DNA from: an uncultured bacterium
GTDB lineage: Bacteria > Patescibacteriota > Minisyncoccia > Phycocordibacterales > CAIZLB01
NCBI GenBank assembly: GCA_903952785.1
Contig: CAJBHC010000064.1
Span: 1 to 32,046 of the forward strand
Length of the DNA: 32,046 bases
Reading direction: 5' to 3'
In this document: one piece after another, positions 379 through 23,009 of the stretch
How the letters are laid out: the number at the start of each line of letters is the position of its first letter
Position numbering within the stretch: the first letter of the stretch is position 1
The notes under the pieces: generated by a model
The model's input: only the letters and a program-made list of their open reading frames with translations
What the model was told of the DNA's origin: nothing
Databases searched by the model: none
Made by a program: the position numbers and the translations under genes

Positions 379-512
379 TAAAATCCTATAATTCCTACTC
401 TCAGGGAAACTTGCGAACTGCAGTGAGCAGATGATTTCCGTTCCCCATAAGGAAATCACGTTTTCAGCAGAAAAATGGCGTGTTCCCTGAGGGTAAGAAT
501 TATGGAATTTTA
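379..512. repeat. Hairpin element copy 1: 30-nt imperfect inverted-repeat arms (379-408 / 483-512) around 74-nt core (409-482)
   Basis: Arms complementary except 4 positions; core is 68/74 identical to 22696-22769. Confidence 0.85.
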
Positions 513-535: not shown

Positions 536-544
536 TGCTATAAT
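536..544 (+). promoter_or_regulatory. Extended -10 promoter (TGCTATAAT) of murG, probably leaderless
   Basis: TGCTATAAT 8 nt before ATG 553; TTGTAT -35-like at 517. Confidence 0.7.
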
Positions 545-552
545 CTATACAT

Positions 553-1695
553 ATGAAGATATTGCTTACAGGAGGTGGCACAGGAGGCCATTTTTACCCA
601 CTCATAGCGGTTGCCGAGGAAATTCGTGAGGTAACTCATAGAGAGAAAATTCTTGCGCCAAAGATATATTATATGGCTAATTCGCCATATAATTCTAAAG
701 TTCTGTTTGATCAAGAAATTGAATTTGTGCATGTTTCTGCTGGAAAAAAAAGGATTAACCCTCAAGGAATTTCTAAGCTTTTAAACTTAATAGATGTCTT
801 TAAAATGGGCTTTGGTATTATGACCGCTGTCATAAAAATGTACTTCATAATGCCAGATGTTATCTTCGCCAAGGGAGGCTTTGTAAGTTACCCAGCACTT
901 TGCGCGGGAAAGTTTTTCAAGATTCCAATAATAATTCATGAATCAGATAGCGTCCCAGGAAGGGTTAGCAAATGGGCAGGTAAGTTTGCTACTAAAGTTG
1001 CAGTCTCATATAAAGAAGCATCCGTGTTTTTTGATGAAAAAAAAGTAGCGTATACAGGTAATCCTGTTAGAACTGAGATCAGTCAGATACTTTCACACGG
1101 CGCTGGCGAATATTTAGGACTTGAAGAAAATGTCCCTGTAATATTTGTAACAGGAGGATCTTCAGGTGCAAAGATAATTAACAACATTATTCTTGAAGCC
1201 TTACCAAGACTCGTAGAAAAATATCAGGTAATCCACCAAACAGGGAAATTGAATTTTCAAGAAGTATCAAGATCTGCTGATGTAATATTGGAAAATAATC
1301 CTCACAAAAATAGATATAAACCATATGATTATTTAAATGCGCTTTCAATGAGGATGTCAGCAGGTGCCGCTAGCGTTATAATTTCTCGTGGAGGATCTCA
1401 AATATTTGAAATTGCTCTATGGGAAATTCCAGCAATCATAATTCCAATTACAGATTCAAATGGCGATCATCAACGTAAAAATGCATACAACTTCGCAAGA
1501 AGTGGAGGCTGTGTGGTTGTAGAGGAAGCTAATTTGAATACAGAAATTATTCTAAATGAAGTAGATAGAATCGTCACAAATACACATGTTAGAGGAAAAA
1601 TGATAGAAGGGATGAAGGAATTTAGAAGACCAGACGCGGCAGAGTTAATTGCAAAAGAAGTTTTAAAAATTGCATTAGGTCATGAAATACAATAA
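553..1695 (+). CDS. murG: UDP-N-acetylglucosamine--N-acetylmuramyl-(pentapeptide) pyrophosphoryl-undecaprenol N-acetylglucosamine transferase
   Basis: MKILLTGGGTGGHFYPLIAVAEE..., HESDSVPGRVSKWAGKFATKVAVSY, YTGNPVR, ISRGGSQIFEIA motifs. Confidence 0.97.
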   Translation: MKILLTGGGTGGHFYPLIAVAEEIREVTHREKILAPKIYYMANSPYNSKVLFDQEIEFVHVSAGKKRINPQGISKLLNLIDVFKMGFGIMTAVIKMYFIMPDVIFAKGGFVSYPALCAGKFFKIPIIIHESDSVPGRVSKWAGKFATKVAVSYKEASVFFDEKKVAYTGNPVRTEISQILSHGAGEYLGLEENVPVIFVTGGSSGAKIINNIILEALPRLVEKYQVIHQTGKLNFQEVSRSADVILENNPHKNRYKPYDYLNALSMRMSAGAASVIISRGGSQIFEIALWEIPAIIIPITDSNGDHQRKNAYNFARSGGCVVVEEANLNTEIILNEVDRIVTNTHVRGKMIEGMKEFRRPDAAELIAKEVLKIALGHEIQ

Positions 1696-10585: not shown

Positions 10586-11569
10586 TTATTTCAAGATTGG
10601 GAAAGCTCTGATCTCACTTGAACAAATAATCTTGTTTGCTGCGTATTGAGTTGTCTTATAGAAGTATCCTGTAGCAACAGGTTTTTTCATTAGACCAGCC
10701 TCAACCCAGGGGGCAAGAACAGTACTTAAATACTTTGTTTGAAAAACATTAACAGCTCTCTCAGTTTGTGATCCGAATTTTCCTGTTATAGGTAGTTTTG
10801 TGCCAATTTGTTCATTCAAGAACTTCTGTAGCTTCTTAACTTCAGCTTTATTGTTGTTCTTATTTGACTTTTTCATGTAGGTCTTGAACATCTGCCCACA
10901 AACAGCTTCTTTATCTGTATCAACAGATGCACCTAAAACTGACCCCGTTGTTGTTCCAAGTATAGTTGGAAAACCATAGTAACTTCCACCTGAACCACCA
11001 CTTGAGAAGCTAGTAGTTGAAGGTGCTGGAGTTGCGGGGACAACAGGAGGTGTTGTTGTGGCCACTGGTTCTTGAGCAAAACTATTACAGTTTCTATCTC
11101 CCATGTCTGTTGTTCCGTTATTGTCATTGTCTAGTCCGTCGTGACATAGAGCATATGAGTTTTCTACAACTACATTTATTGTATCAGGAATAGTCTCAGG
11201 TGCGGTTGCAAAACCAGCACAGTTTCTGTCACCCATATCTGTTGTTCCATTGTTATCATTGTCTAGTCCGTCGTGACATAGAGCATATGAGTTTTCTACA
11301 ACTACATTTGTTGTATCAGGAATAGTCTCAGGTGCGGTTGCAAAACCAGCACAGTTTCTATCTCCCATATCTGTTGTTCCATTGTTATCATTGTCTAGTC
11401 CATCGTGACATAGAGCATATGAGTTTTCTATAACTGGTGTAGAGACATCCTCTGACACTGAACCTGCAGCCTTTGCTATTGAAGCACCCAAAATCAACGC
11501 TACTGCGAAGAATGATGCACCCAATATTAGTACTGAAAAGGCAGTTACCTTAATATTTTTTGTAAACAT
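10586..11569 (-). CDS. Secreted protein with three 44-aa repeats (CHDGLDNDNNGTTDMGDRNC) and C-terminal peptidoglycan-binding-like domain
   Basis: Signal peptide; D/N-rich repeats; VKKLQKFLNEQIGTKLPITGKFGSQTERAVNVFQ resembles PG_binding_1. Confidence 0.85.
   Translation of the reverse strand: MFTKNIKVTAFSVLILGASFFAVALILGASIAKAAGSVSEDVSTPVIENSYALCHDGLDNDNNGTTDMGDRNCAGFATAPETIPDTTNVVVENSYALCHDGLDNDNNGTTDMGDRNCAGFATAPETIPDTINVVVENSYALCHDGLDNDNNGTTDMGDRNCNSFAQEPVATTTPPVVPATPAPSTTSFSSGGSGGSYYGFPTILGTTTGSVLGASVDTDKEAVCGQMFKTYMKKSNKNNNKAEVKKLQKFLNEQIGTKLPITGKFGSQTERAVNVFQTKYLSTVLAPWVEAGLMKKPVATGYFYKTTQYAANKIICSSEIRAFPILK
11087..11440. repeat. 132-bp in-frame tandem repeat, about 2.7 units
   Basis: Unit starts (acagtttct...) at 11087, 11219, 11351; near-identical DNA. 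Confidence 0.9.
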
Positions 11570-14567: not shown

Positions 14568-15137
14568 CTATATCTCCATCTCTTTATTAGAGAAAGGTTT
14601 GATCAAATTATCTAAATAACAAGCAGGATCTTCGCATGGCCAATCATATAATCTGATATTTGCTATATTTTTAGAATTGTAGGAATTCATTATGTATCTT
14701 TGATGCAAACTTGAATATTTCCAATCCAAGACATTATCTACAAATCCAGCAGTGAGAGGGTTTCTTTCAACATACCTAATAACAGTTTCAAGATGCTTTT
14801 GATCTTTTATTAAGAATGATTTAAATCTACCTTGGTATAAATGCCCTGTTCCAGTTGTATTATTATCTTTATGACACCTTTGTGTATGAACCACCGTCAG
14901 CCATTTCATAAAATGTGACAGCTCTTTATCATATCTTGTCTTTATCACGATATGAAAATGATTGTTCATTACAACATAAGCTACAATATCTGTGTCAAAC
15001 ATCTCTTGCGCATCTGATAAAACATTCATAAATAACGCAAAGTCTTTCTCAACGAAATTTATTTTTAGCCTTGCGTTGGCCCTATTTATATAATGATAAT
15101 ATCTATCTGCGATATCTATTCTTGGTTGTCTTGTCAT
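14568..15137 (-). mobile_element. REP-associated tyrosine transposase (RAYT, Y1 transposase, IS200/IS605-like)
   Basis: MTRQPRIDIADRYYHYINRANARL...VMNNHFHIVI...HLYQGRFKSFLI...YVERNPLTAG; HxH motif plus typical RAYT order; ATG at 15137 preferred over 15197. Confidence 0.93.
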
Positions 15138-15232
15138 CCCTATATAATAAACATATCGACATGAAATAAACCCGAAGATTTTATAAAGAATTAACAAACA
15201 ACAACATTACAACATCTTTTTTACATCATGTA

Positions 15233-20434: not shown

Positions 20435-20622
20435 TGTCGTGTCTTGTCTTTCTATGTTATTCAGTTTTCAAGCGACTCGGAGGCCAACACCAGTGTTGTT
20501 ACCCAGCCCAAAAAAAGATTACCATCTGGAATTAGAATCGTCAAATAAATACTCGTCAAAATTCATTAAACAAAATTGGATGTCATTTTCCCCTATCTCT
20601 GCTAATATATTATGTATAGATT

Positions 20623-22462: not shown

Positions 22463-22568
22463 CTTCCTATTGTCTTTCTAATTCTAACGTTGTTCTATAA
22501 TTCTAACTGAATCATTCCGGCTTACGCCTACAAAAAATGATCCAATCTATTTTCAAAAAGCCAAAAAA

Positions 22569-22616
22569 AGAGTATCACGCGGAAGTTGTGTCGTCAACGC
22601 CTGAAACTTGAATTCT
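22569..22616 (-). promoter_or_regulatory. Accessory-class promoter with AGAATTCAAG box upstream of 22462 gene
   Basis: Minus: AGAATTCAAG (22607-22616), TTGACG (22592-22597), TACTCT (22569-22574), spacer 17. Confidence 0.6.
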
Positions 22617-22674
22617 AACCTGAATCATCTCCTCCCTCAGTTTTACAAACCAAATGTACAAACCAAATGAACGA

Positions 22675-22790
22675 AAAATCTCCCTGCCATGAAAGACTTG
22701 CGAACTGCAGTGAGCAGATGATTTCCGCTCCCCATAAGGAAATCACATTTTCAGCAGAAAATCTCCGTGCTTTCATGGCAGGGAGATTTT
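22675..22790. repeat. Hairpin element copy 2: perfect 21-bp inverted-repeat arms (22675-22695 / 22770-22790) around 74-nt core (22696-22769)
   Basis: AAAATCTCCCTGCCATGAAAG / CTTTCATGGCAGGGAGATTTT; core matches 409-482. Confidence 0.9.
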
Positions 22791-22899
22791 AAGTGAATCT
22801 GTGAACCCGACAGGACTCGTCCCTTACAGGGACTGTACAGGTTTCGTATCGTGCTCGCCGTCCAAATACAGACGGCTCCGCGCGATAAACTCCACCTTG

Positions 22900-22930
22900 A
22901 AAACAAAAACCGCCGAAGCGGTTTTGTTTT
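22900..22930 (-). terminator. UUCG-type terminator downstream of tRNA-Ala
   Basis: Minus: AAAACCGC-TTCG-GCGGTTTT. Confidence 0.8.
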
Positions 22931-22936
22931 CTACGG

Positions 22937-23009
22937 TGGACCCGACAGGACTCGAACCTGCCACCCCCTCAGTGCAAGTGAGGTGCTCTACCAGATGAGC
23001 TACGGGCCC
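22937..23009 (-). tRNA. tRNA-Ala (UGC)
   Basis: GGGCCCGTAGCTCATCTGGTAGAGCACCTCACTTGCACTGAGGGGGTGGCAGGTTCGAGTCCTGTCGGGTCCA; CCA not encoded. Confidence 0.96.

Follow-up and report, generated by a model that had tools for sequence, protein, structure and literature searches.

A dispersed hairpin element with a conserved folded tip and a free but paired stem in Patescibacteria

The window, by which we mean the whole 32,046-nt stretch of DNA analysed here, is contig 64 of a 99-contig, 0.88-Mb Patescibacteria genome (G000). It carries two copies of a hairpin element, one beside the murG promoter and the other beside a tRNA-Ala gene, with the features listed below.

379-408, plus strand: left arm of the outer stem P1 of copy 1, forming 26 Watson-Crick and 2 G·U pairs out of 30 with 483-512
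409-482, plus strand: conserved core of copy 1, the three-way-junction tip in a 74-nt variant, 68/74 identity to copy 2
411-430, plus strand: hairpin P2 of copy 1, with a UUGC/GCAG closing helix, a GA/GA internal loop, a 2-bp inner helix and a TGCA loop
432-458, plus strand: optional 27-nt extra hairpin of copy 1, TGATTTCC..GGAAATCA, which replaces the 5' side of lower P3
461-474, plus strand: upper P3 of copy 1 with its AGCA tetraloop (466-469); TTTTCAGCAGAAAA is nearly invariant and the stem pairs covary
483-512, plus strand: right arm of P1 of copy 1, pairing with 379-408
539-544, plus strand: -10 box TATAAT of the murG promoter, directly following copy 1
553-1695, plus strand: murG, an ORF with N and C domains of Pfam glycosyltransferase 28; its promoter directly adjoins copy 1
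22666-22695, plus strand: left arm of P1 of copy 2, with 21 contiguous base pairs at 22675-22695, next to the core
22696-22769, plus strand: conserved core of copy 2, 74-nt variant, matched by covariance model R1 at 22678-22787 (E 4.2e-12)
22719-22745, plus strand: the same 27-nt extra hairpin as in copy 1, common to 7 copies in the genus
22770-22799, plus strand: right arm of P1 of copy 2, 25/30 pairs with 22666-22695
22935-23009, minus strand: tRNA-Ala, its 3' side facing copy 2

A preliminary description of the window, made from the sequence alone, had claimed that the cores at 409-482 and 22696-22769 share 68/74 identity and that the enclosing arms, unrelated between the copies, pair with each other in both places. 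Both claims hold (28/30 pairs including G·U in copy 1 and 25/30 in copy 2), and the two left arms agree at only 11/30 positions. The fold energies of both copies lie far below those of shuffled sequence (z -7.3 and -7.8), and copy 1 is matched by model R1 at 391-500 (E 1.1e-9). Chance is excluded because the core finds four more copies in G000, one of them degenerate, and many in related genomes; the two best-preserved of these further G000 copies have perfect 26-bp arms of unrelated sequence. Two details of the proposed core fold had to be changed. The first hairpin, drawn as CTGC-AGTGA-GCAG, fails: the partner of GCAG (427-430) is UUGC (411-414), and this helix encloses a tandem GA/GA and two more pairs, a redrawing made because copies with TTGT..ACAG, TTAT..ATAG and TAGT..ACTG fix that partner. 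The second hairpin, TGATTTCC..GGAAATCA, holds only in part as a piece of the core, being an optional 27-nt insert that only 7 copies of the genus, from five genomes, carry.

The core is usually 50 nt long in the window's genus, as in most G000 copies (ACTTGCGARYTGCARYGAGCAGAGCCARTTTTCAGCAGAAAAYTGGCGTG), and 56-57 nt elsewhere, and the 74-nt copies of the window are therefore an atypical form. Copy 1 has nearly the same arms as the copy at the orthologous murG site of the sister genome G005, which also nearly shares the 3' side of P3 and lacks the 27-nt insert. Core segments, the insert included, are common to loci whose arms differ, suggesting that the core segment has probably moved between loci without the arms, and such transfer explains the combination of same core and different arms seen in the window. 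A 126-nt form with a larger insert occurs at least five times in another genome (G018), and core inserts may be a general feature. Other repeats were also observed in the window. At 11076-11471 a 132-bp unit is present three times in tandem (100/92/73%), inside a 327-aa ORF (10586-11569, minus strand) with a peptidoglycan-binding domain, and a 37-nt direct repeat is present at 20508-20544 and 22561-22597 (76% identity).

The window's two copies are members of a large family, of which hundreds of copies were found. The family, with its conserved folded tip and free paired stem, is real, and it is likely to be undescribed. The core is present in all genomes of the window's genus (3-16 copies each), and with R1 the element was found in 12/15 genomes of the taxonomic family. 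A second model, R2, matched 160/299 genomes and 92/165 genera of the order, in a survey whose counts per genome were cut off at 14 and are therefore lower bounds. A phylum-wide R2 search gave matches in 28/389 genomes, about half of the 28 outside the order. Eight genomes that were searched fully contain 10-39 copies each. The E-values of these home-made covariance models are rough. When an exact 22-base core pattern was run against GTDB, with one genome for each of 85,488 species, it matched 68 stretches, 67 of them from Patescibacteria or unnamed MAGs. Titles naming a phylum or group referred to Nomura-, Kaiser-, Yonath-, Zambryski-, Taylor-, Vogel-, Giovannoni- and Azambacteria (Patescibacteria/Parcubacteria), the sole exception being one 'Bacteroidetes' MAG, which is likely to be mis-binned. 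A viral origin was set aside, as the exact core pattern is absent from the viral contigs of IMG/VR.

At gathering thresholds, the 4227 Rfam models found only tRNA and tmRNA in the window and 18 further loci, and a relaxed Rfam search of four element loci gave only sub-threshold miRNA/sRNA matches. Nor did our literature search find a paper on such an element in Patescibacteria. The preliminary description had not recognised the structure as a known RNA, which holds for Rfam, and had called it an undescribed structured RNA or hairpin mobile element, naming the kinds of evidence that would bear on this proposal. Support was to come from numerous copies whose arms vary but pair, and hundreds were found, with arms that pair in nearly all of them. 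A covariance-model search of related genomes did yield further copies, restricted almost wholly to Patescibacteria, whereas an Rfam match that could name the element was not obtained. The covariation that was to be looked for proved strong. The proposal is thus supported, although sequence does not settle whether the element is an RNA or a mobile element.

The shared fold is a three-way junction composed of P1, about 26-31 bp long, free in sequence and almost perfectly paired, together with P2 and a P3 capped by an AGCA tetraloop. The tip is conserved in sequence, while P1 is conserved only in pairing. In a genus-level alignment of 13 copies from the window's family, gap-free over 86 columns, 98.3% of cells are paired and 29/36 pairs change on both sides, including 5/6 pairs of P2. 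The covariation score of 0.74 compares with 0.22 in shuffles and no more than 0.15 when the partners are slid. In a broad set of 35 copies across Parcubacteria, 23/36 pairs change on both sides. For both sets, 0-1 of 500 shuffles were as good as the observed covariation and the slid controls were far lower. These tests are not R-scape, and the shuffle and slid-partner controls agree. Cores of the broad set (56-57 nt) have a bulged A in P3 and a longer, 8-bp P2 made of UUGC/GCAG, an internal loop GCA/GA and a freely covarying 4-bp helix. Unguided RNAalifold recovers the same fold, and the loops and junction (GA, the AGCA tetraloop and GAGCAGA) are nearly invariant. These results show that the fold of the element has been kept by evolution. 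The arms of P1 carry a pattern of composition, with purines beside the core, CC at base pairs 10-11 and A-rich sequence farther out.

If only DNA palindromy counted, G·U and A·C mismatches should be equally frequent in P1. On the element's own strand we find 75 G·U against 28 A·C (p 4e-6, with copies that are not fully independent), and the ratio is 15:4 where both neighbouring genes lie on the opposite strand; one U·G pair of P2 is invariant. The excess of G·U and the invariant U·G indicate that the folded plus strand is probably selected whatever the direction of the neighbouring genes; it would be single-stranded either as a transcript or as ssDNA, a view formed without RNA-seq data. An own promoter to the left of the element was rejected, since sigma70-like scores there equal those of shuffled sequence in all gene-orientation classes; the same test does detect the promoters of downstream genes to the right.

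Copies lie between ORFs, in all four gene orientations, and are located at the borders of transcription units, where they either immediately precede a promoter or come behind a stop codon or a tRNA. The right edge is tight against the promoter or 3' end, whereas the left edge is loose. When the right-hand gene is on the plus strand its promoter usually follows the stem directly, as at murG, where the TATAAT is preserved whether or not a congener carries the element, G003 alone having a different sequence. When it is on the minus strand, its stop codon or tRNA end is mostly no more than about 12 nt from the stem base. A U-tract on the strand of the right-hand gene accompanies 7/8 gene-end copies in the genus, compared with 1/27 promoter-class copies, and about half of all copies precede promoters and have no U-tract. 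In the sister genome G005 the element follows the same tRNA-Ala as in the window at a distance of 14 nt, and its end is a U-tract on the strand of the tRNA. At hpf the element of G003 corresponds in place to an ordinary terminator of one congener, and the outer stem bases of the two are similar. No motif could be aligned to the stem base, the information there being at most about 0.1 bit per position. Minus-strand -10 boxes to the right of the element were considered and rejected as mirror images of plus-strand TATAAT-like boxes. The right-hand genes in the genus are often what we take to be translation genes (tuf, typA, infB, rpsL, rplY, rplS, rpmF); gene names other than murG were read from protein sequences without a database search, and gene calls around the copies are plain ORFs. 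A regulon defined by gene function is not claimed, the right-hand genes of the broad set being mixed housekeeping genes.

A separate observation was made beside copy 2. Positions 22801-22819 repeat the 3' end of the tRNA-Ala (22936-22954) with 18/19 identity, and the stretch of about 117 nt between the two repeats (within 22801-22954) holds a terminator hairpin and another fold. No such insert is present at the sister locus in G005. Inserts of this kind, likewise with a tRNA 3' end repeated, are found at tRNA-Arg in G002 and at tRNA-Val in G005. One possible explanation is a second small element with tRNA 3' ends as its target.

Six congeners were compared at orthologous sites, and at ten loci at least two of the six have the element. 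At most of these loci the arms have strongly diverged between congeners yet still pair, so that the same site in a sister species can have different, fully paired arms. Changed stem pairs between orthologs are mostly two-sided and few are one-sided, with 11 two-sided and 0 one-sided changes at the tRNA-Ala locus and 10 and 0 at locus J; one row (G002_L087, locus F) has a one-base offset in its pair counts and was left out of the argument. Template switching is a known mechanism of rewriting hairpins and predicts two-sided changes (PMC8794818). The two-sided excess fits this mechanism, because stepwise compensation via G·U should leave more intermediates. In other congeners the element is missing at the same promoters, and presence/absence and decay are seen at clpC, rpmF, secA, typA and rpsL, with remnants still visible at rpmF (G003) and secA (G004); gain and loss cannot be distinguished at these sites. 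Between species, the right flank alone is conserved at five loci, both flanks at five and the left alone never, and at typA, rplY, rpsL and tuf the element stays with the right-hand gene while the left neighbour changes. In two other genomes, G131 and G039, copies at unrelated sites form subfamilies with related arms and cores, from which it follows that whole hairpins have multiplied. In the window's genus each locus has its own unrelated arms, so no donor copy is visible. Taken together, multiplication within genomes and retention at orthologous sites are both shown. As a further observation, one locus of G039 (L309, C7:279222-279484) holds three copies or partial copies in tandem over about 260 nt.

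No mobilising enzyme was found for the element. IS200-like and RAYT-like Y1 transposases are patchily distributed (10/13 genomes with the element and 8/14 without), are absent from several copy-rich genomes and are not adjacent to copies, the nearest being 1.4 kb to many kb away. A Y1/RAYT transposase was rejected as the mobiliser for want of a clear association across genomes and of adjacency. The window itself contains a single-gene RAYT-like Y1 transposase at 14568-15197 on the minus strand (about 210 aa, PF01797, E 6e-14), with no element copies beside it. The only usable empty site, clpC in G005, shows no clean target-site duplication.

On balance, and with only modest confidence, we read the element as a REP/ERIC-like dispersed element that is recognised by its shape, is spread by an unidentified mobiliser and has partly been co-opted as a terminator; its mobility, the factor and the function are all inferred. 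We lean this way because of the dispersed copies, the bursts of copies with related arms, the presence and absence between sister species, the strand-specific fold in every gene orientation and the lack of a recognisable promoter. According to this reading, an unidentified trans-acting factor would bind the folded single strand, either ssDNA or RNA, recognising its tip and how long and how perfect its stem is. New copies would arise through this recognition, much as they do for REP/REPIN and ERIC-like elements. Selection on the fold would keep the arms paired, and hairpin-primed template switching would contribute by rewriting both arms in a single event. After insertion, copies behind genes would double as intrinsic terminators of those genes, an inferred role supported by the stop codon at the stem base and the U-tract in 7/8 genus copies. 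What speaks against this reading is the lack of a mobilising enzyme, of a clean target-site duplication and of a visible donor copy in the window's genus; long retention with compensated arms also exceeds the needs of a purely selfish element.

The main rival, which remains possible and may coexist with the dispersed-element reading, is a host-function RNA or terminator/insulator. Here the plus-strand RNA would mark the borders of transcription units, with copies selected for that role, and would stop or protect transcripts from the left before the next promoter or before they run antisense into the next gene. The tight right edge at a promoter or 3' end with a loose left edge, the constancy of the right-hand gene at typA, rplY, rpsL and tuf, the compensated structure at orthologous sites and the ordinary terminator at the same hpf place in a congener without the element all favour this view. 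However, some orientations leave no neighbour to transcribe the plus strand, the left sigma70-like promoter is not above the shuffled level, the promoter-preceding class has no U-tract, and sister species lack the element at the same promoters.

Three other explanations are very unlikely. Neutral palindromes, made and perfected by template switching alone without function or mobility, would account for the concerted two-arm changes by a known mechanism (PMC8794818), but a tip of 50-57 nt shared across many families and the G·U strand bias need selection or recent common descent, and P2 and P3 covary as well as P1. An attC-like site, at which a recombinase cuts and joins a folded single strand, would fit the strand-specific fold, the intergenic position and the varying left but constant right neighbours, but the conservation is inverted, with a variable stem and a conserved tip, and no cassette arrays were seen. 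Guide or siRNA-like hairpins, whose variable arm would be processed to a small RNA targeting matching sequences, agree with near-perfectly paired arms of about 26-31 bp and free, fast-changing sequence, but the arms of five G000 copies match their own genome only by weak chance (14 nt exact or 81% over 31), and the patterned arm composition and paralogues with common arms are unlike captured guides.

A bolder reading goes beyond the one we favour and is no more than possible as a joint claim. It holds that mobile or replicating elements of a new class are at work here, identified solely by the shape into which their single strand folds and moved by an unknown enzyme; that each has a conserved three-way-junction tip on a stem rewritten by hairpin-primed copying; and that they are long established and built into the transcription-unit borders of the order.

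Few free-living or episymbiotic bacteria have genomes as small as those of Patescibacteria, where to our knowledge dispersed repeats would not be expected to last. The element reaches 39 copies in about 0.9 Mb, occurs in more than half of the order's sampled genomes and has no Rfam family, which makes it a sizeable feature of the lineage that has gone unannotated. It is also a clean natural example of long stems that stay perfectly paired despite turnover of their sequence. Should a mobiliser be found, the known elements would be joined by one that is recognised by its shape; should the element prove to be a host RNA or terminator, it would be a widespread unannotated structured element at Parcubacterial operon borders.

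Several known systems resemble the element in part. Like integron attC sites, it places structure above sequence and favours one strand, but the conserved and variable parts are swapped. Copies that lie behind a gene of the opposite strand have a stem and a U-tract, as intrinsic terminators do, and differ from them by a conserved strand-specific tip and by promoter-class copies that have no U-tract. REP/REPIN sequences, which are mobilised by RAYT (PMC3116915), are likewise short, intergenic, multi-copy, hairpin-forming and non-autonomous. They are, however, mostly inverted doublets, whereas our element occurs mostly as singlets, with only a few inverted doublets (in G093, G039 and G069) among about 160 copies. 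REP copies flank a RAYT gene, while no RAYT adjoins the element and no clear link to Y1 exists, and instead of their conserved palindrome and foot the element has a conserved three-way-junction tip, and no conserved foot sequence. The review of MITE-like repeats (PMC10969869) does not mention Patescibacteria. ERIC, Correia/NEMIS, RPE, BOX and MITE-like repeats (PMC10969869) are also short palindromic intergenic sequences that need no ORF, lie near promoters or 3' ends as the element does, and can affect expression as transcribed hairpins. The element meets the MITE-like trait of dispersed copies in intergenic DNA, in all orientation classes. Compared with the terminal inverted repeats of MITEs, its arms are unrelated in the window's genus and related within the G131 and G039 subfamilies. 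In all these known kinds the whole repeat, including its inverted ends, is conserved. The element differs from them in this respect, its arms being free in sequence and only its tip conserved.
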